Positions 8,103-24,731 of a stretch of DNA of 64,000 nt are shown here, in pieces; position 1 is the first letter of the stretch; every line of letters begins with the position of its first letter. The position numbers and the translations under genes are program-made. The stretch is taken from NCBI RefSeq assembly GCF_003254295.1, contig NZ_QKZO01000012.1, positions 1 to 64,000 on the forward strand, read 5' to 3'. This stretch comes from Rhodobacter capsulatus. GTDB taxonomy: Bacteria > Pseudomonadota > Alphaproteobacteria > Rhodobacterales > Rhodobacteraceae. Under the pieces are notes generated by a model, which was given only the letters and a program-made list of their open reading frames with translations, had not been told where the DNA came from and did no database searches.

Positions 8103-8666
8103 GTGAACCCATACGATAGCCGAAGCGCCATCAGCGCCTTCCTGTTCAAGAAATGCCCCCCGGAAGCCGTGGATCTGGCCTTTGTCTTCTGCAGCCCGAC
8201 GCTCAGCAGCCTCGATCCGGCCATCGCACTCTATAAAGCGGGGCTGACCCCGAAACTGCTGCTCTCGGGCGCGGGCACGGCCATCGACGGATCGGTGGAA
8301 TGGGCGTTCTATCGCGATCATGCCCTCGCCTCGGGCGTGGCGGAAAGCGCGCTGCTGCTTGAAAAGACCGCCCGCAACACCGCCGAGAACGCGGCCTTCG
8401 GGGCGGCGCTGATCGAGAAGGAACTGGGCTGGGCGCAGGTCCGCAGTCTTGCCGTGTGCGCCAAGCCCTTTCACATGCGGCGCGCGATCATGACGCTGCG
8501 CCCGCATGTCCCGGCCGGGGTGCGGCTGATCGCCCAGCCCCCGGACGATCCCGGCGATCTTGCCGCGGAAACCTGGTGGCAGACCGCGCAGGGCCGCGCG
8601 CGCGTCTTCGCGGAATTGGAAAAGATCGGCGCCTATGCCCGCAAGGGAGATCTGGGCGATGTCTGA
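8103..8666 (+). CDS. YdcF/SanA-like DUF218 protein
   Basis: The 187-aa product fits the DUF218 (YdcF/ElyC/SanA) family: an early strand ending in FCSPT, a glycine-rich loop LLLSGAGT, a conserved ARNTAENAAFG stretch, and a late strand with CAKPFHMRRAIMTL. Members of the family are linked to cell-envelope polymer metabolism, and YdcF binds S-adenosylmethionine. There is no membrane anchor or signal, so this one looks cytoplasmic. Translation starts at a GTG at 8103. The stop overlaps the start of the Mur ligase-NRPS gene by 8 bp, so the two are almost certainly coupled and probably act on the same molecule. Confidence 0.8.
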   Translation: MNPYDSRSAISAFLFKKCPPEAVDLAFVFCSPTLSSLDPAIALYKAGLTPKLLLSGAGTAIDGSVEWAFYRDHALASGVAESALLLEKTARNTAENAAFGAALIEKELGWAQVRSLAVCAKPFHMRRAIMTLRPHVPAGVRLIAQPPDDPGDLAAETWWQTAQGRARVFAELEKIGAYARKGDLGDV

Positions 8667-11600
8667 CCCGGCCCCCTCACACCTGACCCGCCCGCAGCTC
8701 GCCCGCCCCCACCTCGCCCGCATGCACCTGATCGGCGTCGGGGGAAGCGGGATGCTGCCTTTGGCGCTGCTGCTGCGGCAGGCGGGCCAGCCGGTGACCG
8801 GCAGCGACGATCTCTGCGCCCCGGCGCGTCTTGCGCTTTTGCAAGCGCAAGGGATCGCGGTGCGTTCGGGGGCGGATCCGGCCCTTGCGCGGGCGGCCGA
8901 TTGTGTCGTCGCCAGCCCGGCGATTCCGGAAACCCATGTGGAGCGACGGGCGGCACGGCGCGCGGGCCTTCCCGTCAAGACCCGCGCCGAGGCGCTGGCC
9001 GAGGTGATCGCGGGCCGTCAGACCATCTGCGTCGCGGGCAGCCATGGCAAATCGACGGTGACGGCGATGCTGATCCGGATCCTGACCGCCGCGGGACGGG
9101 ACGATTTCGGCTATATGCTGGGGGCCTCCTTCGCCGATCCCGGGATCGCCCCCGCGCGGCTGGGCACAGCCGGGGCGCCTTTCGTGACCGAAGCCTGCGA
9201 AGCCCATGGCGCCCTGGCGCAGTGGCAGCCCGCGCAGGCGATCGTGACCAATCTTGATGATGAGCACGCCGATCACTACGGCGGGCTGACCGGGTTGCGC
9301 CAGGCCTTCGCGGCGTTCCTGACGCGATTGCCGCCCGAGGGGCAGGCGGTGGCCTGCGGCGACGACCCGCAGGTCGTCGAGATCCTGCGCCGGGCGGGCT
9401 GTGCGGCGCTGACCTATGGTTTTCAGGACGGCAACGGCTTGCGGGGGGTGCCGGACGCGGCCGGGGGCGCCAGCGTCTTCCTGCAGGGCGCAGAGCTGGG
9501 GCGGCTCGCGCTGGCGGTTCCGGGGCGGCACAACATGCTCAATGCGCTGGCCGCGCTGGGCATGGCGCTGCGCCTTGGCATCGGGTTCCGGGTCGCGGCC
9601 GAGGCGCTGGCCGGGTTTCCCGGGATCGCGCGGCGGCTGCAGCGCCTCGACACCGGCGGCGGGCCGCGGCTTTATGACGATTTCGCCCATCACCCGGCCG
9701 AGATCGCGGCGGCTCTGGCGGTGCTGCGCGAAACGACCGCGGGGCGGCTGATCGCCGTGCTCGAGCCGCAATTGCACAGCCGGGTGACGCGCATGGCCGG
9801 GCGCTTCGCGCAGGCGCTGGGCGCGGCGGACCAAAGCTACATCCTGCCGGTCGCGGCACTGGGCGAAAGCGCGCGGGCGGGCGATGGCGATGCCGCGCTG
9901 GCCGCGGCCTGCCGCGCGGCGGGGCTTGTCTGGCAACCTGTCGCGGAGCTCGGCGCCCTGCTGGCGCGGCTCGGACAGGATCTGCGGGGCGACGACACGC
10001 TTGTTGTCATGGCGGGGACAAGCGGCGCCGCGCTGGCCCGGCAGATCGCCGCGGCGCTGTCGCAACCGTCCGCGCCCCGCGCGGCCCCCGCATCCGTCCC
10101 GGCCCCCGCATCCGTCCCGGCCCCCGCCTCCAACCCCGCCCCCGCCCCCAGCCTGCTGCTTGGCGAGCGGCGGCCCCCGCCGCCCGATCTGCTCGCCCTT
10201 GTCGCCGCGCAGGCGAAGCGGCGGCCCGCCGCACCCGCCGTCGAGATGGGGCCGCGCCGGCTGAGCTACGCCGATCTGCTCCGGCGCAGCGACGAGCTTG
10301 CCGCCCGTCTGGCCGCCGCGGGCGTCGGGGCGGGCGACAGCCTCGGTGTCTGCCTTGGCCGCTCGGTGGACCGGGTGACCGCCTTCCTCGCCGCCTTGCA
10401 GCTTGGCGCCGTCTTCGTGCCGCTTGACCCGGCGCTGCCCGAGGAAAGGCTGCGGCAGATGCTGCAAACCGCCCAGGTGCGGACAGTGGTGGTGAATGCC
10501 GCCAGCCCGGCGCTGCCGGAGATCGGCCTGCGCATCGTCCCCTGCGGCCAGCTGCCGGAGCGGGACGATGCCCCCGGGCCGCCCGGACGTCCGGTGCCCG
10601 CAGCGGCCGAAGCCACGGCCTACATGATCTTCACCTCCGGCACGACGGGGGCGCCGAAAGCGGTCGAGATCTCGCGCAGGGGGCTTGCCAATTACGCCGC
10701 CGCCGCGGTCCGGCACTTCCAGATCGCCCCCGGCGCGCGGGTCTCGCAGCTCAGCGGCTTCGGCTTCGATGTCTCGGTGGGGGACATGGCGATGGCGCTG
10801 GCCGCCGGGGCCTGTCTGGTCTTTCCCACGGATCTGCAGGCGATCCCCGGCCCGCCCGTCGGCCGCTTCCTTGCCGAGGCCCGGCTGACGCATCTGTCGC
10901 TGACGCCCTCGGCGCTGGCGATCATCCCCCCGGCAGAGCTGCCGGATCTGACCCATGTCATCGTCGCGGGCGAGGCCTGCCCGCCCGCGCTGGTCGCGCG
11001 CTGGGGCGAAGGGCGCGTCTTTCTCAATGCCTATGGGCCGACCGAAGCCACGATCGAGGCGCTTTTCGCCCGCTGCACCCCCGGCCAGCCCGTCAGCATC
11101 GGGCGGCCCTTCGACAACATGGGCGCCTGCGTGATGACGGAGGCCCTTGAACTTGTCACCCCGGGCGCGACGGGGGAGCTGTGCCTGTTCGGGCCGGGCC
11201 TCGCCACGGGATATCGCCACCTGCCCGCGCTGAGCGCGCAGCAGTTCCCGGTGGTCGACCTGCCCGGCCTTGGCCAGACGCGGATCTATCGCACCGGCGA
11301 CCGGGCCAGGGTCGGCGCCGATGGCGGGCTTCTGTATCTGGGGCGGATGGACGGCCAGCTGAAGGTCAACGGCCACCGCATCGAGCCCGGGGAAGTCGAG
11401 GCGGCCCTTTGCGCCCTGCCCGGGGTGATCGACGCGGCGGTCTCCTGCCTTGCGGCGCCGCTTTCGGCCGATCGTCTGATCGCCCATCTGGTGATGCGGC
11501 CCGGCGCCGCCGCGCCCGATCCGGTCGATCTGCGCGCCCGGCTGCAGCGGCAGCTGCCCGGCTGGATGGTCCCCGCGGTCTTCCTGCCGGTGCCCGAAAT

Positions 11601-12648
11601 TCCGCGCAATGCCAATGGCAAGCGTGACCGCAGCGCGCTGCCGGTGCCGCCGCAGCTGACGCGGCCCGCCGCGGCCCGCCGCACCGGCACCGCGACCGAG
11701 GCGAAGCTGATGGCGCTGATCGACGCCGAGGTCGGGACCGGGGTCATCGCCGGCACGCGCGACAGCCTGCGCGAGGCCGGGATCGACTCTCTCTCGATGG
11801 CCAACCTGCTGTTTGCGATCGAGGACGCTTTCGGCATCGCCCTTGATGCCGGGTTCGAGGCCGGGTTCGATACGGTCGAAGTCCTGGGGCTGATGGTGGA
11901 TGCGCGGCTGCGGGCCCCGCCCGCGCCCGCCGCGCCCGGGATCGCCGCGGCGCTGCCCGCAAAGATCCTGCCCCATCTTGCCACCTGGCCGGGGCGGCGG
12001 CTTGGCCGGGCCGGGCTGGTGCGCAGCCTTGGAGAGGCAGGTGCGGCGCAAAAGCTGTTCTGGTGCTTTCAGGCCGGTCAGGAATTCGCCCGGCTGAGCG
12101 AAAGCCTGGGCGGGGCGGTCTCGCTTTTCGGGCTGCGCTCGGGGCATCTGGCGGTCGATTATGATGCCGATACGCTGATGGCGCTTGGTCGGCTTTATGC
12201 CGGGGAGATCACCGCCATCGCCCCGACCGGCCCGCTTTGTCTGGGCGGGAATTGCCAGGGCGGGCTGGTGATGCGCGAGGTCGGGCTGGCGCTGATGCGT
12301 CAGGGCCGCGAGGTCGCGCTGACCATCCTGATGGAACAGGGCCGCTTCCTGCATTACCCGGGCGCCACCCTGCTGCTGTTCGGCGCGGGCAGCTATCTCA
12401 ACCCCTATGGCCAGATCGCGGCGCCGGAGCAGGTGTTCCGCAGCGCCTATCCCGCGGGCCACCATGTCGAGATCCTCCGCGGGGCGCATGGGCAGTATTT
12501 CAGGCCCGGAAATGTCGAGGCGCTGGCCGCGACGATCCTGCGCCATCTCGCGCCTCCCCGGAACGGAGACGGCAGCGGAGACGGCGCGGGCCCTCCTTGC
12601 CCCGGAGCGGCGCGGGGGCGCGTTCCTGCGGACGGATCAACGCACTGA
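8659..12648 (+). CDS. Mur ligase-NRPS fusion: MurC-like ligase, adenylation, carrier and thioesterase domains
   Basis: A 1329-aa fusion. Residues about 20-468 are a MurC/Mpl-type ligase: nucleotide loop GVGGSGM (26-32), ATP loop GSHGKST (127-133), GRHNMLNALAA (289-299) and DDFAHHPAEI (340-349). A proline/alanine linker (about 470-500, with a repeated ASVPAP unit) follows. Residues about 505-1000 are an NRPS adenylation domain with FTSGTTGAPK (658-667), NAYGPTEATI (790-799), YRTGDRAR (877-884) and PRNANGKRDR (982-991). The aspartate at 704 in FGFDVSVGD matches the residue that binds the amino group of alpha-amino acids. A carrier domain (about 1010-1085) has its phosphopantetheine serine at 1044 in GIDSLS. 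The end (about 1130-1298) is a thioesterase with GNCQGG (1197-1202) and His1277. No condensation domain is present, so the Mur part may form the amide bond. The ATG at 8659 has an AGGGAG ribosome site. Confidence 0.9.
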   Translation: MSDPAPSHLTRPQLARPHLARMHLIGVGGSGMLPLALLLRQAGQPVTGSDDLCAPARLALLQAQGIAVRSGADPALARAADCVVASPAIPETHVERRAARRAGLPVKTRAEALAEVIAGRQTICVAGSHGKSTVTAMLIRILTAAGRDDFGYMLGASFADPGIAPARLGTAGAPFVTEACEAHGALAQWQPAQAIVTNLDDEHADHYGGLTGLRQAFAAFLTRLPPEGQAVACGDDPQVVEILRRAGCAALTYGFQDGNGLRGVPDAAGGASVFLQGAELGRLALAVPGRHNMLNALAALGMALRLGIGFRVAAEALAGFPGIARRLQRLDTGGGPRLYDDFAHHPAEIAAALAVLRETTAGRLIAVLEPQLHSRVTRMAGRFAQALGAADQSYILPVAALGESARAGDGDAALAAACRAAGLVWQPVAELGALLARLGQDLRGDDTLVVMAGTSGAALARQIAAALSQPSAPRAAPASVPAPASVPAPASNPAPAPSLLLGERRPPPPDLLALVAAQAKRRPAAPAVEMGPRRLSYADLLRRSDELAARLAAAGVGAGDSLGVCLGRSVDRVTAFLAALQLGAVFVPLDPALPEERLRQMLQTAQVRTVVVNAASPALPEIGLRIVPCGQLPERDDAPGPPGRPVPAAAEATAYMIFTSGTTGAPKAVEISRRGLANYAAAAVRHFQIAPGARVSQLSGFGFDVSVGDMAMALAAGACLVFPTDLQAIPGPPVGRFLAEARLTHLSLTPSALAIIPPAELPDLTHVIVAGEACPPALVARWGEGRVFLNAYGPTEATIEALFARCTPGQPVSIGRPFDNMGACVMTEALELVTPGATGELCLFGPGLATGYRHLPALSAQQFPVVDLPGLGQTRIYRTGDRARVGADGGLLYLGRMDGQLKVNGHRIEPGEVEAALCALPGVIDAAVSCLAAPLSADRLIAHLVMRPGAAAPDPVDLRARLQRQLPGWMVPAVFLPVPEIPRNANGKRDRSALPVPPQLTRPAAARRTGTATEAKLMALIDAEVGTGVIAGTRDSLREAGIDSLSMANLLFAIEDAFGIALDAGFEAGFDTVEVLGLMVDARLRAPPAPAAPGIAAALPAKILPHLATWPGRRLGRAGLVRSLGEAGAAQKLFWCFQAGQEFARLSESLGGAVSLFGLRSGHLAVDYDADTLMALGRLYAGEITAIAPTGPLCLGGNCQGGLVMREVGLALMRQGREVALTILMEQGRFLHYPGATLLLFGAGSYLNPYGQIAAPEQVFRSAYPAGHHVEILRGAHGQYFRPGNVEALAATILRHLAPPRNGDGSGDGAGPPCPGAARGRVPADGSTH

Positions 12649-12700
12649 GAAGCCCTGATCCGGGGCCGCGGCGCAGGCGGTAAGGCGAGAGGCGGGGCGG

Positions 12701-13102
12701 TCAGATCGCGGCGGCGACGATGCGGGTGATGAAAGTGTTCAGCACCGCCTTGCTCATCGCCACGGTCATCGCCTGCTTGAACTCGGGCGAGAGTTTGGCG
12801 CGCGGGATCTGCGCCCCCGGAATCGGCGCAGTCGTGCGGTTCGCGGCGGGCCATGCCGTCGGGCGGGTCAGCGCGGCCTTCGGGCAATGGGCGCAGATAT
12901 GATCCAGGATCGCCCCCAGCTCGCCGCGCTCGACATGGTAATGCACGATCACCGAGGCCGCGCCGCGGTTCACCTCGACCGCCAGCACGCCTTCGAGCGC
13001 GCCGACCTTCTCATGCAGCTTGCGCGCCAGATCGGCATCGCGGCGCAGCGCCTCGATCTTGAAACGGGCGCGGCCGGGGATGTGATGCACGCAGCAGACC
13101 AT
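12701..13102 (-). CDS. HMA-like small protein with a PGR motif, possible FezC-type protein
   Basis: The 133-aa product has an N-terminal ferredoxin-like HMA domain (about 1-75). Instead of the metal-binding CxxC loop it has HHIPGRARFK (6-15), preceded by a CC pair (3-4). The same PGRxR feature is in the N-terminus of the P1B-ATPase next door, which points to a shared partner or ligand. The C-terminal part is a basic, helical segment ending in VLNTFITRIVAAAI. The ATG at 13102 has a GGAGG ribosome site. It is the last gene of a five-gene operon, 94 bp after the ATPase. HMA domains of this kind are known from ferrosome (Fez) gene clusters; that role is inferred. Confidence 0.7.
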   Translation of the reverse strand: MVCCVHHIPGRARFKIEALRRDADLARKLHEKVGALEGVLAVEVNRGAASVIVHYHVERGELGAILDHICAHCPKAALTRPTAWPAANRTTAPIPGAQIPRAKLSPEFKQAMTVAMSKAVLNTFITRIVAAAI

Positions 13103-13196
13103 GGAAGCCTCCGTCCTGTCCCCGGCAGGATGCGAAACCAAAGCGATTCTGTCAAGAATTATCCGGGCCAAGATGCATCCTGGCGCTCGCTTCGCG

Positions 13197-15323
<2,127 letters not shown>

Positions 15324-16536: not shown

Positions 16537-16987
16537 GACCGATTCTTGAGTGTTTTTATATGGTAACAAAATGCCGCAGGACCGCCCCTGCCGCGCGCCG
16601 CAAGGGCGTCTGCCCGGCTTGACGTCCCGACCGGACCGGCGTGCCAGAGCGGGCCAGAGCGGCTTTCCCGTGATGCCCCAACCCTCTGGTTTCACGACAA
16701 GACTCGTTTTGGCGGGAAAGGGTCGGCGCCATCGCCGCGGACCGGACCGACCGCGCGGACGGCACCGGAGGCCGGAAGCTCCCTCCGCCCCGAGGCGCTT
16801 TCGGCCGGAAACGCGCCGCGAATCGGAAGATTATTTCACAATCAGGGGTTGCTTTTTGAATAATCCATACGCGCAAAGGCGTTACGACCGGTTCACATCC
16901 CGCTTTGAATTTGCTCGAAACGGTGTAGCATCAGGGTTGAAATGCCTGAAATATATACAACCCATGGTTGCCGAAAAGGACGACATC
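16537..16987. other. Intergenic region between divergent operons
   Basis: This roughly 450-bp region separates the metal-ATPase operon (minus strand) from the unknown four-gene run (plus strand). Its right half (about 16820-16980) is clearly lower in GC than the flanking genes. It must hold the promoter of the 16988 gene. No confident gene, hairpin or operator was seen. Confidence 0.45.
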
Positions 16988-19324
16988 ATGTTTGACGTGA
17001 CCACCGCCCGACAAGTCGATTACAAGGACAGCCAGGGAAATCAACTGCAGGTGACCGTTTTTCAGGACCGTGAGGACAAGGGTCTGTGGTATCTGGTTCC
17101 CGTGCCGCGGCTGCGCGTCGACAACGGTCAACCGGCCTTTAACCTGACGAAATATCTGAAAAATCAGGACGGAAGCGCCGGGATCTGCACCTTCGAGGTC
17201 GAGCTTTTCGCCCCCGAAGACGCCAAGCGCGCCGCGCAGGAGCAGATCCCCGAGATCCGGGCCTGGGGCCAGTTCACCTGGACCAGCGGCGATGTGTTCT
17301 TCGATTTCGACCTGCCGGTCGAGGGCAAATCCGAAGGCCAGCAGATCTGCGTCTCGCCCTCGCTGTTCGGCTCCAATGTCGCGCGGTTCCTTGTCGAGCT
17401 GGAGACGGAGGCGGCGGTCAACACCTTTGTCGGCGCTTTCACCGGCGCGGGGGGGCTTGCGCCCTTCTCGATCAACTATTCGATGGGGGTGCTGACGCAG
17501 CTGCTGGGCGCCAAGGCCGAGGTGAAATATACTGCCTCAGTGGCGATCGACTACGAGCGCACCTATGAAACCAAGAAGGACACCTGGGGCAAGTCGCAAC
17601 AGGTTCTGGTCGAGGTGAAGCAGAATCTGAAATCCTCGGGCGCGGGGGATGTCAAGGTGACGCCGGGCGTCGGCGGCACCCCCGAAGTGGTGCAGATGGT
17701 GCGCGACTGGGCCTGGAGCGTGCTGGAAACGCAGGTCGCCTCGGCGATCGAGACGGCGCAGCGCCAGGCCACCGGCAACCAGAACCCGATCTCGGTGGTG
17801 AGCGACATCTTCCTGACCTATGCGGAAGATGCGATCGTCGAATGGAGCACGCCGGTGTCGCGGTTCCTGCCCCGGTTCGAGCCCGCGATCTGGGAAAAAC
17901 TCTATCACGAGGTCGACAACCGCGAACTGGTCGTGGTCTTCGAACTGGCCGGCGATCCGACCGATGCGGAAGGCGTGATCGGCTTCGAGGATGTCGAGGT
18001 CGAGGTCCGCTACCCCACCCGCACCACCGACAACAGCTTCAAGCTGAGCCTGGGCACGGGCGGCGAAAGCGCGGTCGTTTATCGCGCGCCGGGCGGCGGC
18101 GCCTTCGACCCGAGCTATGACTATCGCTACACGGTCAATTTCGGCGGCGGCGAGCCCTCCTATACCTCCGACTGGATCCCGGACCGGGCGACACGGGTCA
18201 CCTTCCGGCCCAACCGTCTCGGCCTGCGCAACGTGACCTTCCTTGGCACCGGGATCCCGTTTAAGGACGGGACGCAATATCAGGTCCGGAAGCTTTTCAT
18301 CGACTTCTTCGAGACGCCCCCCGCGGGGCAGCCGCCGAAGCTGCAGACCAAGGAAATGACCGAAAACGACACGCCGGTGGCGTTTTCCTCCACCTATCAT
18401 GTGCCGATCGCCAATGAATACAACTATCGCCTGCGCTATCAGCTGGCATCCGGGGATGTGATCACGGTGCAGCCCGACGCGCGGTTCGGATCGAACAACG
18501 CCGACACCGTTTTCGTGCTCACGCCGCAGCGCTATCTGACGACCTTCTCGCTCCGGGCGCTGAGGATTCAGGGCGGCAGCGGCTTCCTCGAGATGAGCAT
18601 CAACAGCGCCTATCACGACGACCAGAACCCGTCGCAGAAAGTGCCGCCGAACTACAACTGGGACGGCTGGGTGCCCCAATCGCAGACCGGCGTATCAGTC
18701 TCGCCGACCTGGACGTTCCAGGCGCAGCCCGATCCGCAGACCGCCTATTTCGATCTGAACGGACAGGTGATCTACGGCGATGGCGACGTTGCGACGCTGT
18801 CGAATGTCAAGGTGCCCTACAGCCGCCGCGCGCTGATCATCAAGGATACCGAAGAGATCTACAGCGTCGAGATCTTCACCAACGAGATCGACTGGACGCT
18901 GGTCAAGCAGGTGTCGCTGAACATCATGCAATTCGCCGATGCGAAGGGGGCGGTTCTGGCCGAACTGCACGAGGCGGCGCAGCAAAGCTTCACCCTGATG
19001 CGATCCCTGCACGGCACGGCGCCGCAGCCGGACCAGGGCTCCGGGCGGGGCGGATCGGTGTCGGCGGTCAACCTGATCGCCTACAACATGATCCCGCCCG
19101 CCACGGACATGATCGTGAAGGCGCTGCCGCTTTACTACACGCTATATCGGCCGCGCGGGGCGCCGGACATCGTCTTTTACTACAACGCCGACTATGTGAT
19201 GAACGATGGCACCCGCAAGAGCACGGGGCCGCTCGAGGTGACGAACAAGCTGCAGATCCACCTTCCGCCGGTGGCCAGCGATCCGCCGGGCGTGCTGCAG
19301 GCCGCCCGCATCGCTCACCGATAG
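16988..19324 (+). CDS. Large protein of unknown function, first of a four-gene run (778 aa)
   Basis: I do not recognise this protein. It has no signal peptide. The N-terminal part (about 1-260) reads like a beta-rich globular domain (FQDREDKGLWYLVPVPRL, FNLTKYLKN) containing a glycine-rich, weakly hydrophobic stretch (TFVGAFTGAGGLAPFSINYS). The middle (about 260-400) is helical and charged, and the rest is again strand-rich, with several aromatic beta-like repeats and a GxGGSGFLEMS-type turn. The frame is open further upstream, but the ATG at 16988 has an AAAAGGACG ribosome site, which decides the start. The next gene begins 14 bp after the stop. Composition matches the genome, so it is not an obvious recent import. 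Confidence 0.75.
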   Translation: MFDVTTARQVDYKDSQGNQLQVTVFQDREDKGLWYLVPVPRLRVDNGQPAFNLTKYLKNQDGSAGICTFEVELFAPEDAKRAAQEQIPEIRAWGQFTWTSGDVFFDFDLPVEGKSEGQQICVSPSLFGSNVARFLVELETEAAVNTFVGAFTGAGGLAPFSINYSMGVLTQLLGAKAEVKYTASVAIDYERTYETKKDTWGKSQQVLVEVKQNLKSSGAGDVKVTPGVGGTPEVVQMVRDWAWSVLETQVASAIETAQRQATGNQNPISVVSDIFLTYAEDAIVEWSTPVSRFLPRFEPAIWEKLYHEVDNRELVVVFELAGDPTDAEGVIGFEDVEVEVRYPTRTTDNSFKLSLGTGGESAVVYRAPGGGAFDPSYDYRYTVNFGGGEPSYTSDWIPDRATRVTFRPNRLGLRNVTFLGTGIPFKDGTQYQVRKLFIDFFETPPAGQPPKLQTKEMTENDTPVAFSSTYHVPIANEYNYRLRYQLASGDVITVQPDARFGSNNADTVFVLTPQRYLTTFSLRALRIQGGSGFLEMSINSAYHDDQNPSQKVPPNYNWDGWVPQSQTGVSVSPTWTFQAQPDPQTAYFDLNGQVIYGDGDVATLSNVKVPYSRRALIIKDTEEIYSVEIFTNEIDWTLVKQVSLNIMQFADAKGAVLAELHEAAQQSFTLMRSLHGTAPQPDQGSGRGGSVSAVNLIAYNMIPPATDMIVKALPLYYTLYRPRGAPDIVFYYNADYVMNDGTRKSTGPLEVTNKLQIHLPPVASDPPGVLQAARIAHR

Positions 19325-20345: not shown

Positions 20346-21235
20346 TCCGCCAGACGGCGCGCGGCGCTTTCCCCTCGGAGGTGGCGGGGATCGAGGACGG
20401 AACCTGTTTCGTCACCGCCAGCGTCGCGCTGTGCCTTGACCCCGCGGCGCATCGCCCGGCGCTCGAACGCGCGCTCGATTTCATCGAGACCTGCGAGGAT
20501 CCGCGCCATCCCGGGGCCTTCGCCTTTTATCCGCCGCGGGGCAATGGGCCGATGCTGGTGCGCGGCCTGCCGCCCGATGCCGATGACACGGCGCTGGCCT
20601 GGCTGGCGCTGCTGCACGGCGGGCGGCGCGGCACCGATCAGGCGCGGGCGGCATTCGAGGCGCGGATCACGCCTGCCGCCTGTTTGCTGGTGCCGGGCGG
20701 CGCCCCGCCCTGGGTGCGCCGCGGCGCGGTGCGGACCTGGCTGATCGAGCGCGGCCGCGACAATCCGGTCGATCTGGCGGTGAATGCCAATGTGCTGGCG
20801 CTGGCCTGCCGTCTGGGCCTTGCGGCGCATCCGGTGGCGCAGGGCGCTGCCGCCTCGCTGGCCGCGGCCGCGGCGGGCGGCTTTGATCCGGCGGGTTTCG
20901 GCCGTCGGCTGGCGCCCTATTATGCCGATGTGACCGAACTGTGGTTCGCCGTCCGCCGTGCCGCCGCGCTGGACGACGGGACGCTTGCCCCGATGCTGGT
21001 TCCGGTGCTGGCCTGGCTGGCGCCCCTGCTGGGAAGCCGGGCGCTGGCGCTCGACAAGCCGCTTTACTGCAACGACCACGGACGGCCGGTCTGGCGCGCG
21101 CCGGTGCTGCAACGCACTCGCCGCCTCGGTCCCGCGCCCCGCCTGCCCCACGCCAGTGCCTGCGCTTTCAAACAGACGCCTGCGCTTTCAAACAAGGGAG
21201 ACCAGCATGACGTTCTTTTCCTCTGCGGCGCTTGA
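20312..21235 (+). CDS. Class II terpene cyclase-like/prenyltransferase-repeat protein with a DADDTA motif (307 aa)
   Basis: The product is all-helical with repeat-like helical hairpins. Near residue 90 it has GLPPDADDTALAWLALL, a match to the DxDDTA acid motif with which class II terpene cyclases protonate an alkene or epoxide. Later NPVDLAVNANVLALACRLG and PYYADVTELWFAVRRAA look like further alpha/alpha-barrel repeats. At 307 aa it is one barrel domain, about half the length of a normal diterpene or squalene-hopene cyclase, so it may be catalytic on a small substrate or a relic. The ATG at 20312 is a guess, as no ribosome site is evident and overlap with the preceding gene suggests coupling. 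The 3' end overlaps the next gene by 29 bp. Confidence 0.65.
   Translation: MRSLAIMRAVLIRQTARGAFPSEVAGIEDGTCFVTASVALCLDPAAHRPALERALDFIETCEDPRHPGAFAFYPPRGNGPMLVRGLPPDADDTALAWLALLHGGRRGTDQARAAFEARITPAACLLVPGGAPPWVRRGAVRTWLIERGRDNPVDLAVNANVLALACRLGLAAHPVAQGAAASLAAAAAGGFDPAGFGRRLAPYYADVTELWFAVRRAAALDDGTLAPMLVPVLAWLAPLLGSRALALDKPLYCNDHGRPVWRAPVLQRTRRLGPAPRLPHASACAFKQTPALSNKGDQHDVLFLCGA
21158..21194. repeat. Tandem 17-bp repeat (20-bp period)
   Basis: GCCTGCGCTTTCAAACA occurs at 21158-21174 and again at 21178-21194, just before the ribosome site of the 1174-aa gene and inside the tail of the cyclase-like frame. It adds a near-duplicate peptide (CAFKQT, ALSNKG in shifted phase) to that tail. It may be a slippage scar. 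Confidence 0.8.
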
Positions 21236-24200
21236 GGCCGCCCCGGTCGGCGCCACCCCGGCGCTGCGGGTCAGCACGAATTACATGGAAACCTTCCTGC
21301 CGTTGCAGCCGGTCTCCTCGGGCACCGAGATCCAGACCTATCTGAACACCGCCGGGATGCTCGACATCTACAGCGTCGGCACCACCGGCCGGGTCTATCG
21401 CTATCGGCGCACCGATGCGACGCTCGCCCCCTATGAGGAAGCCGATCTGGGGATCCGCGCCAGCCAGCTTTACTTTTTCGACGCCGCGGGCGGGCGCTCC
21501 GACACGCCGTCGATCTTCGGGCTCAACAGCGAAAGCAAGCTGACGCTCGCCACCTATCAATCCGGCGGCTACGGGCAGCGCAACACCGGCCCGCAAGACG
21601 AGGTGATCCGCCATTTTCTGGGCGTGCGCGGCGTGACCGGGCGGATCTACATCAACGTGCGGCTTTCCGACGGGCGGCTGTGCACGAATTACTACGAGCC
21701 GCAGACCGACAAATGGGGCGGGCCGGTCTGGGCGCCGGTGATCGGCCCGGACGGCAAGGATGCGGTGATCAAGGACATGGCGATGGCCGCCAACAACCCG
21801 GTGCAATCGGCGCTGTTCGCGATCGGCATGGATGACGAGGTGCTCTTCGCCGAGGACAGTTTCCGCACCTCGCGGCTGCGCAAGCTCAACAAGAAGGCCT
21901 CGCATATCGCGGCGATCGCCGATTCCGAAAATCTGCTGAACATCCTCGCGGTGGAGCGCGACAGCGGCCTTTTGTGGGTGAAGAAGCAGCGCAAGCATTC
22001 GACCGCGGGCATCCAGTTCGACGATTGGGTGCAGGTCGATCCGGGCCAGAGCGGCCGGCTGGGCCGGTTGACGGCGAACCTGCGCCGCGACGGGCTGATC
22101 GAGGTTTTCGCGCTCAACGAGGCGGGCGATCTGACCTATACGCGCCAGGTCACCAACAGCGCGGGCAAGCTGCAGGGCTGGCGGGTGATCTTTCCGATCG
22201 CCTGCGACATGGAAAACCGGATCGTCGCCGTCGGGCGCAATACCAACGGCTATTCCGAGGCCTATTCGGTGACCGACGAGAACCAGATCTTCCGGTTCTG
22301 GCAGGCCCCCGACACCGAACAATGGTTCTCCGAGGTGCTCGATCTGCCGAAGGCCGAGGACAAGCTGGTTTCCGTGCCCACCCATTCGACCGAGATCTTC
22401 GTCGTCGACGCCGAGGGGGCGCCGATCTATGATGCGCCCGTCAGCGTCAACGCGGCCTTTCTCTGCACGCTTTGGGTGAACGGCAAGGCCTATCGCTCGA
22501 GCCTTGTCGATCCGGTCAGCTTCCGCACCGACGCGACGGGCAAGGTGGTCATCTTGCAGCGCGCCAATGCGCTGGCGGGGGCGACGCTGCTGATCGCGAC
22601 GCCCAGCACCGGCGCGGGCCAGCCGATCGTCGTGCAGCCGAATGCGCAGCTGCAGGCGAAGATGGCGCAGACCACCAGGGACGACGTGCTGAACGCCACC
22701 GACAGCGCCGGGGCGCTGCTGCTGCCCGCCGACACCAAGGACCGCGAGAAGGTGGCCGAAAGCATCGCCGAGGTCACCCGCCAGTCGATGCGGATCGCGC
22801 AGGCGGATGAAACCGCGCGGGCGATCCAGTACAAATTCGCCTCGCCCCATGCGCTGCGCCACAGCCTGCAGGCGGATTTCCGGTCGCTTGGCACGGTGTC
22901 CTGGGAGATCGATTTCGGCTCTGGCGTGCCGATCTATCGCAGCCTGGACAGCAGCGACATCGCCGCCTTCCGAAGCGCCCATGCGCCGCAGCTGGACGCC
23001 GGGGGGTCGTTTCTCGGCATCGACTGGGGCTCGGTCTGGCGCGGCATCCGCGACGGCGTCGAATGGCTGATCAACGGGCTGGAAAAGATCGTCGTCACGA
23101 TCATCGACGGCATCGCGAATGTGCTGTTCAAGATCGCGGGCCAGGTCTTTCAGGCGGTGATCAAATTCGCCCAGCAGGCGCTCGATTTCATCGAAGGGGT
23201 CTGGAACTGGCTCAAGGTGAAGCTGGAGCAGCTCTTTCAGTGGCTGGCCTTCCTGTTCGATTTCAAAGACTTCGCCCGCACGGCCGAGGGGATCAAGCAC
23301 AGTGTCGGGGTAACGCTCGATTTCACCGCCGATGCGGTCCATGCGCTGCGCGGCCGGGTCGAGGAAGGGTTCGACTTTCTCAAGGCGGGGCTGGACGGCA
23401 TCGTCAACAACCTGATCCTGACCCTGAACCGCGAGGGCGACCCGACGATGGGCGCCTATTTCGAACAGGAGGAACCGAGCGAAGCGGAACAGCATGCCTC
23501 CGATCACAACATCTTTCTCAATGCCTTCCGCGAGAACGAGACCAGGCTGACGGTCAAGGCGGACGGCGCCGCGATCTTGCGCGCCACCACCGCGCTGACC
23601 GATCCGCTGCAGGATCTGTTCGGGCGGATGAAATCCTTTTCCGACAATTTCCAGTTCGGTGACGGCAAGCAGGCGCTGGACGAGGCCTTCGGCTATTTCA
23701 ACAACATCGGAAACGAGCCCGGGCGGGCGGCGCAGCTGTTGCTGAGCGGTCTGGTGAAGGCGCTGGAGGCGGCGGCGCTGTTCGCGCTCGATGCGGCCGA
23801 GGGCATCGTGCTGACGCTGTTCGATCTGGTCGAGGATCTGATCCGGCTGGTCAAGCTGGCGCTGTTTCAGGAATGGGAAATCCCGATCCTGTCGCAGCTT
23901 TACCAGCTGTTCACCGGCGACCGGCTGACGCTGACACCGATCGATGTCGTGGCCTGGATCGCGGCGATTCCGATGACGATCACCAGCAAGCTTATCCTGG
24001 GCCGGACGCCCTGGACGGCGGAGCAGCTGGCCAGCTTCAAGGCGAGCTTCACCGTCGAGATGCTGAAGGACCGGCTGGGGATGAGCCGGGCCAAGGCGCT
24101 GACGGCGGCCGAGGCGAACGGCTGGACGCCGGAGTTGCGCGAGAATTTCCTGACCGGCTATTGCGTCGTGATGGCGTTCCGCTCGCTGCTCGATCCAAGT

Positions 24201-24731
24201 TCGGCGATGGCGAATGCCTCGGGCGCGGGGCTTGGCCCGGCCGGGATCGTGCCCGCGGCGGCGGGGCTTTTGTCGACGCTCTTCACCATGCCCTGGGCGC
24301 TGTCGCCGCTGGCCGGGGCGCCGAACTGCCAGCCCGGCGATCCGGGTTTCGGCGTGACGATCTGGATCTGCCAGATCCTGTGCGGCCCGGGGCGCGGGAT
24401 CGCGCTGCATTATCAGCCCTGGATCACCGGCGAGGCGAAGATCACCACCGCCGAATTGACCCAGACCGCCTGGGGGGTGGCCTATCTGATCATGCTCTCG
24501 GTCAATTTCGCCAATCAGGAGCAGACGACGCGCAACAAGCTGGCGTTCAGCCGCGGCATTCTCAACCTTGTTCCCGGCCAGGCCTTGCGGTTCCTGGCGA
24601 TCCCGGCGCTCAACAAGGGCACCTACATGATCCCGGCGGCGATCCTGGGCGTGCTGAGCTTCCTGTCCTGCTGGGGCTCGCTTGGCGTGGCCATCGCCGA
24701 GATCCATCTGAAGGATCAGGCGCAGGCCTGA
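21207..24731 (+). CDS. Very large protein of unknown function: beta-propeller-like N-part, amphipathic helices, hydrophobic C-terminus (1174 aa)
   Basis: No family name is certain. Residues about 20-400 contain recurring blocks of the type VLFAEDSFRTSRLRKL, LLNILAVERDSGLLWVKKQ and LIEVFALNEAGDLTYTRQV, spaced 40-50 residues apart. This is how a lectin-like beta-propeller looks. About 400-480 resembles an Ig-like or carrier-like strand domain (EIFVVDAEGAPIYDAPV). About 600-720 holds long amphipathic tryptophan-rich helices (GLEKIVVTIIDGIANVLFKI, VWNWLKVKLEQLFQWLAFLF). The C-terminal third has several hydrophobic segments, with membrane-like stretches near 1000-1040 and at the end (AAILGVLSFLSCWGSLGVAI). 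No signal peptide is visible. The ATG at 21207 has an AAGGGAG ribosome site. A surface, membrane-inserting or toxin-like role is possible but unproven. Confidence 0.75.
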   Translation: MTFFSSAALEAAPVGATPALRVSTNYMETFLPLQPVSSGTEIQTYLNTAGMLDIYSVGTTGRVYRYRRTDATLAPYEEADLGIRASQLYFFDAAGGRSDTPSIFGLNSESKLTLATYQSGGYGQRNTGPQDEVIRHFLGVRGVTGRIYINVRLSDGRLCTNYYEPQTDKWGGPVWAPVIGPDGKDAVIKDMAMAANNPVQSALFAIGMDDEVLFAEDSFRTSRLRKLNKKASHIAAIADSENLLNILAVERDSGLLWVKKQRKHSTAGIQFDDWVQVDPGQSGRLGRLTANLRRDGLIEVFALNEAGDLTYTRQVTNSAGKLQGWRVIFPIACDMENRIVAVGRNTNGYSEAYSVTDENQIFRFWQAPDTEQWFSEVLDLPKAEDKLVSVPTHSTEIFVVDAEGAPIYDAPVSVNAAFLCTLWVNGKAYRSSLVDPVSFRTDATGKVVILQRANALAGATLLIATPSTGAGQPIVVQPNAQLQAKMAQTTRDDVLNATDSAGALLLPADTKDREKVAESIAEVTRQSMRIAQADETARAIQYKFASPHALRHSLQADFRSLGTVSWEIDFGSGVPIYRSLDSSDIAAFRSAHAPQLDAGGSFLGIDWGSVWRGIRDGVEWLINGLEKIVVTIIDGIANVLFKIAGQVFQAVIKFAQQALDFIEGVWNWLKVKLEQLFQWLAFLFDFKDFARTAEGIKHSVGVTLDFTADAVHALRGRVEEGFDFLKAGLDGIVNNLILTLNREGDPTMGAYFEQEEPSEAEQHASDHNIFLNAFRENETRLTVKADGAAILRATTALTDPLQDLFGRMKSFSDNFQFGDGKQALDEAFGYFNNIGNEPGRAAQLLLSGLVKALEAAALFALDAAEGIVLTLFDLVEDLIRLVKLALFQEWEIPILSQLYQLFTGDRLTLTPIDVVAWIAAIPMTITSKLILGRTPWTAEQLASFKASFTVEMLKDRLGMSRAKALTAAEANGWTPELRENFLTGYCVVMAFRSLLDPSSAMANASGAGLGPAGIVPAAAGLLSTLFTMPWALSPLAGAPNCQPGDPGFGVTIWICQILCGPGRGIALHYQPWITGEAKITTAELTQTAWGVAYLIMLSVNFANQEQTTRNKLAFSRGILNLVPGQALRFLAIPALNKGTYMIPAAILGVLSFLSCWGSLGVAIAEIHLKDQAQA

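Follow-up and report, generated by a model that had tools for sequence, protein, structure and literature searches.

Several described systems contain parts of the kind considered here. In cyanophycin synthetase and in MurC-Ddl fusions, the partner of the Mur ligase is an ATP-grasp ligase, and EntF carries a condensation domain ahead of its adenylation, thiolation (carrier) and thioesterase domains (A-T-TE). As far as the accessible parts of the cited papers extend, MysE of the mycosporine pathway, an A-T-TE protein, attaches an amino acid to a small acceptor, and a D-Ala-D-Ala ligase homologue is found in its place in two other cyanobacteria (PMC7693272). A Cys nucleophile is less common in the thioesterases of nonribosomal peptide synthetases (NRPSs), being described among the structurally characterised ones for SulM, ObiF and the uncharacterised AB3403 (PMC11298585). 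Here, a gene joining a Mur ligase to an A-T-TE module in one chain was analyzed in a 64,000-nucleotide stretch of Rhodobacter capsulatus DNA (contig NZ_QKZO01000012.1, positions 1 to 64,000; the whole stretch is called the window). In the open-access literature searched, subscription papers lying outside its scope, no account of a Mur ligase combined with an NRPS module was found, in agreement with a first-pass annotation of this DNA, to which no characterised enzyme with both chemistries was known. Within their accessible text, one paper deals with an additional murE gene and with NRPS clusters, neither related to this fusion (PMC7601586), and another a Mur ligase and a cyclodipeptide synthase in one operon, unfused (PMC2922099).

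The fusion gene and its parts are located in the window as follows.

8659..12648, forward strand: Mur ligase-adenylation-carrier-thioesterase fusion, 1329 amino acids, codons open to the stop
8643..8649, forward strand: candidate Shine-Dalgarno-like AAGGGAG ahead of the ATG at 8659, from reading the sequence only
8722..9015, forward strand: Mur ligase N-terminal domain, residues 22-119 (PF01225 Mur_ligase, 53.3 bits)
9031..9567, forward strand: Mur ligase central ATPase domain, residues 125-303 (PF08245 Mur_ligase_M, 70.7 bits)
9631..10014, forward strand: Mur ligase C-terminal domain, residues 325-452 (PF02875 Mur_ligase_C, 48.3 bits)
10039..10188, forward strand: Pro/Ala-rich linker with a VPAPAS-like short repeat at about 10060-10180 (substitution ratios, sequence reading)
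10204..11622, forward strand: adenylation domain, residues 516-988 (TIGR01733, 365.9 bits against a cut-off of 317.4)
11752..11850, forward strand: carrier (PP-binding) domain with Ser1044 (PF00550, 23.4 bits against a cut-off of 20.8)
11935..12558, forward strand: thioesterase domain with Cys1199 in GGNCQGG, Glu1226 and His1277 (PF00975, 18.6 bits, below cut-off; alignment)

The Pfam order along the chain is Mur_ligase, Mur_ligase_M, Mur_ligase_C, AMP-binding (220.7 bits), AMP-binding_C (40.6 bits), PP-binding and Thioesterase; six of these domains exceed their cut-offs and Thioesterase alone falls under its own (26.4 bits). The Mur ligase motifs GVGGSGM (26-32), GSHGKST (127-133), GRHN (289-292) and DDFAHHP (340-346) are followed by the module motifs TSGTTG (659-664), GIDSLSM with the carrier Ser1044, and GGNCQGG (1196-1202). 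A condensation domain (PF00668) was not found in the window's fusion protein by Pfam at E up to 0.01, in line with its absence as stated at first pass, and the chain is therefore not a canonical NRPS elongation module. The same domain order was found in one frame in six other complete copies, by which frame error and chance are excluded. The single-chain architecture of Mur ligase and A-T-TE is thus confirmed as real and not an artefact. The first-pass statements that both halves lie in one 1329-codon frame and that the frame is not a read-through are borne out by the Pfam and NCBIfam matches and by these orthologues.

The six further complete copies belong to three genomes of the same genus (G004, G005 and G008), to locus L009 of another genus (counted as one copy with G192:C14), to plasmid pAMI4 of Paracoccus aminophilus JCM 7686, and to the divergent locus L198 of genome G240. 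Identity to the window fusion is 76-78% for the copies within the genus, 65-67% for L009 and 64-65% for pAMI4. Stops appear in the G008 match only since it overruns the gene's own stop, and the gene frame itself is stop-free. The whole fusion is present in 4 of the 18 genomes of the genus, including that of the window; a fifth member, G002, displays two partial matches only, adjoining stretches that read N. Wider searches recovered few others. Two of 100 sampled family genomes carry it, both of the window genus (E <= 1e-120, six best candidates per genome scored), and one of 72,556 plasmid records reaches at least 80% query coverage. For the mur cluster of the window genome, the closest DNA among the plasmids comes from Paracoccus (about 78% over 58% of the query), which makes the host a relative of Paracoccus. 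Among the best 80 contig-scan matches listed, L009 is the single full-length match and the only one fused to an A-T-TE module; the other loci are mostly Mpl by motifs, the scan pattern YDDFAHHP favouring Mpl. A scan of viral contigs gave no match. The architecture is firmly established, rare within what was searched, and built of known families.

The ratio of nonsynonymous to synonymous substitution (dN/dS, Nei-Gojobori) between the window and L100 or L101 ranges over 0.16-0.34 in the individual Mur, adenylation, carrier and thioesterase segments and over 0.39-0.55 in the linker, which fits the Pro/Ala hinge proposed at first pass; the window linker is longer than those of the other five close copies. 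Selection does not appear uniform, as the near-identical L101 and L102 give 0.59 for the Mur N domain (from few changes) and 0.37 for the thioesterase, and the linker reaches 0.82 between L100 and L101. Judged by the domain ratios against L100 and L101, the domains are under purifying selection and both halves are maintained on one chain. Plasmid pAMI4 is dispensable, a strain lacking it having been obtained and grown, and the accessible text of that report contains no mention of nonribosomal synthesis or adenylation (PMC3925955). The function of the fusion is therefore accessory in Paracoccus aminophilus.

The Mur part belongs to the Mur ligase superfamily, since its three Pfam domains stand in order with the P-loop Lys and the conserved Glu and His (Lys131, Glu178 and His203 of the central domain). 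It was tried as a MurC or an Mpl and rejected as both, scoring under the two curated cut-offs: 297.6 bits to the murC model TIGR01082 (301.3 in the genome search; cut-off 335.1) and 162.8 bits to the mpl model TIGR01081 (cut-off 388.7). The 59 genome-search matches above the murC cut-off score 491-616, and the fusion falls in the band of Mpl and other paralogues. Grouping of the fusions with the MurC of the window genome and that of another member of the genus was likewise rejected by the approximately unbiased (AU) test (p = 3e-72). In the sense of a MurC proper, the first-pass label "MurC-like" is not supported. The MurC motifs EADESD and QPH are replaced by EACEAH and EPQ. Cys180 and Gln371 are present in 7/7 fusions, whereas Asp and His occupy these positions in 21/21 MurC rows used, and all 43 comparators have Asp at 180 and His or Arg at 371; Gln371 thus stands in place of the His of MurC or the Arg of Mpl. 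The GSD motif and Arg109 of the N domain and Arg375 are retained as in MurC.

The seven fusions form one clade (support 100/99). In the best tree they lie on the Mpl side with support of 77/55 only; grouping with a stand-alone alphaproteobacterial paralogue, here called X (AU p 0.36), and grouping with MurC excluding X (AU p 0.13) are both compatible with the data. Tree input comprised every second MurC locus (15 of 30), the 14 Mpl loci in full, MurC and Mpl of E. coli, three MurCs from actinobacteria, two from the genus, two X sequences and another five loci from the contig scan. Paralogue X was observed at L196 (9052-10605, reverse strand) and L197 (8994-10391, reverse strand); both score below the murC cut-off, and L197 is below the mpl cut-off too. 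In L196, the X gene is transcribed divergently from an LD-carboxypeptidase gene and has a TonB-receptor gene after it; the LD-carboxypeptidase neighbour occurs in 1/2 loci. X of the L196 type is a possible Mpl substitute in wall recycling, judging from this context. In the window genome, no Mpl match was obtained at E <= 1e-100. Extra murC genes borne on plasmids of Paenibacillus and Streptomyces are unfused.

The adenylation domain passes the TIGR01733 cut-off and has the equivalents of Asp235 and Lys517, which we take to hold the alpha-amino acid. Aligned to EntF, its pocket code reads DVGSIAAIEK for the window copy and DVGSIAAVE(K) for the five other close ones (all six were read at nine positions, and four of them at the Lys as well). 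The code DVGSIAA(I/V)EK by itself does not name an amino acid. The code of L198 is DAHGNGIMIK, with Asp and Lys present as in the window, and the amino acid therefore probably differs between the close copies and the L198 lineage, as far as pocket codes can tell. Phosphopantetheinyl transferase matches (PF01648) lie on contig C11 of the window genome and at C15:23451 near NRPS genes; no MbtH match was found in this genome at E <= 0.001.

The thioesterase anticipated at first pass is present, but its nucleophile is Cys1199 and not Ser. Cys holds this position in 19/19 distinct homologous genes aligned, a count valid for the subfamily only, the genes having been chosen by likeness to the fusion thioesterase (13 of the 30 profile-search loci and eight others, the weak matches L124-L140 being left out); the more distant L105 has Ser. 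His1277 is found in 16/19, with Tyr in L109 and two genes not covered, and at position 1226 ten genes have Glu, four Asp, four Asn and one Cys. The homologues L110 (37.1 bits) and L198 (38.9 bits) pass the PF00975 cut-off and so support the thioesterase label. GGNCQG thioesterases are carried by L110, a C-A-T-TE protein encoded beside glycosyltransferase genes, by L109, which has sulfotransferase and TPR parts, and by L199, an A-T-TE protein. In the C-A-T-TE relatives L110, L109 and L105, a condensation domain occupies the place of the Mur ligase in the domain order. Free-standing GGNCQG thioesterases were also observed, in L165 (8283-9395, reverse strand; G000:C3) and in L164 (7584-8687, reverse strand), the latter in a cluster with TylF/CmcI-type methyltransferase, glycosyltransferase, carrier and acyl-AMP ligase genes. 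In L159 (7941-11743, reverse strand) and L160 (5317-9194, forward strand), loci from two genomes of the genus, a URO-D-family gene (tested with Pfam in L160 only) overlaps an adenylation-carrier-thioesterase-like gene.

Two further loci define a partner of the fusion.

8103..8666, forward strand: DUF218/YdcF-family gene of the window, 187 amino acids, GTG start (PF02698, 59.1 bits against a cut-off of 27.6)
1144-5493 of L198 (G240:C174), reverse strand: DUF218-Mur-A-T-TE, 1450 amino acids in one chain with three Mur domains

The stop of the DUF218 gene and the ATG of the fusion overlap by 8 bases, and inspection by eye revealed no membrane segment in the DUF218 protein. An orthologue lies immediately upstream of the fusion in L009, L089, L100, L101 and L102. 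L198 was located through a thioesterase profile search of 149 genomes of the order (32 matched, E <= 1e-12); its identity to the window is 39% for DUF218, 38-45% for the Mur domains, 40% for the thioesterase, 30% for the adenylation domain and 16% for the carrier. It is one copy on a 5.6-kb contig, where a one-base error could merge two overlapping genes. Thus, DUF218 is tied to the fusion in 7/7 complete copies, as the upstream gene in six and fused in frame in L198, whose chain links it directly to the pathway. The neighbourhoods of the window and the five loci vary, and DUF218 and the fusion are the sole pair common to all six. DUF218 is a conserved partner that belongs to the unit. The first-pass annotation had left out this partner, the Cys thioesterase and the relatives with a condensation domain at the Mur position. 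A glycoside hydrolase family 3 (GH3) gene follows the fusion immediately in L009 and L089, i.e. in 2/6 loci whose downstream DNA could be read. These two genes share 67% identity, and the L009 gene is of the NagZ type, with 177 bits to PRK05337 against a cut-off of 207. No close GH3 relative was found in the genome of the window (best 31%), and the L198 contig stops 1.1 kb downstream of the fusion, where this neighbour cannot be assessed. This NagZ-like neighbour, together with the LD-carboxypeptidase gene beside X (1/2 loci) and the retained catalytic residues, makes a cell-wall precursor a plausible substrate of the Mur part.

Other features of the region were observed downstream of the fusion.

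12172..13410, no strand assigned: repeated segment of the thioesterase end and downstream DNA, 97.6% identical to a second copy on contig C16

The second copy, at about 9930-11175 of G000:C16, is a repeat of about 1.25 kb of the fusion 3' end and the DNA beyond it, i.e. a truncated copy, and is a sign of past rearrangement. Two large forward-strand frames of 924 and 1257 amino acids (window 16550-19324 and 20958-24731) have coding-like GC content at third codon positions and gave no Pfam match at E <= 0.001.

The reading that we favour, tentatively and at somewhat less than an even chance, is that of a dedicated hybrid synthetase in which the Mur ligase would do the work of an NRPS condensation domain. 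The adenylation domain would activate an alpha-amino acid and load it as a thioester on the carrier. The Mur domain would bind a UDP-sugar acid, most likely UDP-N-acetylmuramic acid (UDP-MurNAc), and convert its carboxylate to an acyl phosphate with ATP, after which the alpha-amine of the carrier-bound amino acid would attack to give a muramoyl-aminoacyl thioester. Cys1199 would then receive the acyl group for release to water or to an acceptor bearing an amine or a hydroxyl, with DUF218 in an intimate role, perhaps the handling of the nucleotide-sugar product. What results would be a conjugate of muramic acid and an amino acid, accessory in nature and distinct from the essential wall precursor. 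Amide formation by the Mur domain with the carrier-bound amine is suggested by the condensation domain at the same place in L110, L109 and L105 and by Gln371, while the indications for UDP-MurNAc are the fold, certain N-domain residues of the MurC type and the presence of a NagZ-like neighbour. Put more broadly, and with less confidence, this might be a new assembly-line logic in which acyl-phosphate chemistry of a Mur ligase replaces the condensation domain, a wall sugar is joined to a carrier-tethered amino acid, a Cys thioesterase off-loads the product and DUF218 is an obligatory fourth part, the family being naturally combinatorial in that the adenylation domain and its amino acid vary and the sugar-acid ligase stays constant.

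Several observations weigh against the hybrid synthetase. Asp180 and Asp183 of 43/43 other MurC/Mpl-type ligases are changed to Cys and His (Phe183 in L198), and on these residues UDP-MurNAc may not be the acid. MurC-conserved positions are kept by the fusions in 21/27 (N), 27/37 (central) and 18/26 (C domain) cases, but Mpl keeps 20 (N) and 28 (central), so that the fusions are no closer there; moreover, the MurC match of the Mur structural model is partly built in, its input alignment having included MurC and Mpl. AlphaFold2 prediction of the carrier-thioesterase pair from two sequences failed (mean predicted local distance score, pLDDT, 44.1) and gave no domain contact. The adenylation-domain tree, from which L198 and L200 were left out, provides no clear neighbours for the fusions. 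A-T-TE chains with neither ligase nor condensation domain exist in L199 and in L160 (the thioesterase of the latter by profile and alignment only), so that a condensation domain may have been absent from the ancestor altogether. Finally, the GH3 neighbour is missing in the window and L100-L102.

The main rival, somewhat unlikely in our judgement, is that two independent steps share one chain: the Mur domain would attach to UDP-MurNAc either a free amino acid or a recycled peptide, in the manner of MurC or Mpl, and the A-T-TE module would then use its Cys thioesterase to transfer a second amino acid to this product or to a different acceptor. The MurC/Mpl-like fold and most catalytic residues agree with it, as do the recycling context of X in L196, next to the LD-carboxypeptidase gene, and the existence of A-T-TE modules that lack a condensation domain; yet Gln371 on the amine side is unlike the His of MurC and the Arg of Mpl, and the linkage on one chain in 7/7 complete copies is left unexplained. 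Less probable is a Mur domain redirected to a non-muramic carboxylic acid, in which case the chain would make a small amide without any connection to the wall. Folylpolyglutamate synthetase and cyanophycin synthetase are Mur-type ligases turned to other acids, the changes at 180 and 183 fall in the segment after the Mg-binding Glu, and the gene is accessory, being found in few family genomes and on a dispensable plasmid. However, the N-domain residues G28, G31, S86 and R109, typical of MurC and not of Mpl, are retained with GSD, and the NagZ-like neighbour occurs in two loci.

It is improbable that the A-T-TE module makes and releases a modified amino acid for the Mur domain to ligate in free form, the second option of the first-pass annotation. 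The domain order is compatible with this and lends it no specific support, while loading followed by hydrolysis would be futile unless a tailoring enzyme acted on the carrier, and DUF218 alone is common to all the neighbourhoods compared. A frameshift, chimera or decayed gene has a negligible chance: the truncated 98% copy of the 3' end on C16 and the partial G002 copies beside N stretches could be taken for decay, but the six other complete one-frame copies and the domain dN/dS values refute it.

Whatever the reaction, ADP-forming wall-precursor ligation and AMP-forming thiotemplate synthesis are tied together here on one selected chain, and DUF218, in Pfam still named a domain of unknown function, gains a concrete pathway partner. 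If the Mur domain takes the carrier-bound amino acid, Mur ligases would offer a tool for coupling carboxylates with the amines of thiotemplate systems, and UDP-muramic acid would be a gateway into natural products. The product is open to direct search, as a strain without pAMI4 is already described in the accessible text of PMC3925955.

Compared with MurC (PDB 1p3d, 1p31), the UDP-N-acetylmuramate--L-alanine ligase, the fusion differs by D180C, D183H and H371Q, by its score below cut-off and by the fused A-T-TE module; compared with Mpl, the murein peptide ligase of wall recycling, it has neither the EPRSNTM motif nor Arg371. Paralogue X shares with the fusions ten residues (e.g. Ser30, Pro34, Ser132 and Ala156) that occur in fewer than 20% of MurC and of Mpl sequences, yet it is unfused and retains Asp180, and a sister relation is neither shown nor rejected by the AU test given above. 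Cyanophycin synthetase and the MurC-Ddl fusions, like the present chain, combine a Mur ligase with a second amide-forming enzyme, which there is not an A-T-TE module. MysE has adenylation, thiolation and thioesterase domains as in the fusion, a ligase on its chain not being mentioned in the accessible text, and by analogy it offers a partial precedent for A-T-TE addition of an amino acid to a small acceptor. SulM and ObiF, in the accessible description, have a Cys nucleophile as in the fusion, but they make a four-membered ring and place the acid unusually (after strand 7 in SulM), unlike the fusion's candidate acid, Glu1226 of the LMEQ segment by alignment. The C-A-T-TE synthetases EntF, L110, L109 and L105 have the same order of adenylation, carrier and thioesterase domains, and the thioesterases of L110 and L109 are of the same GGNCQG Cys type, with a condensation domain where the fusion has its Mur ligase.

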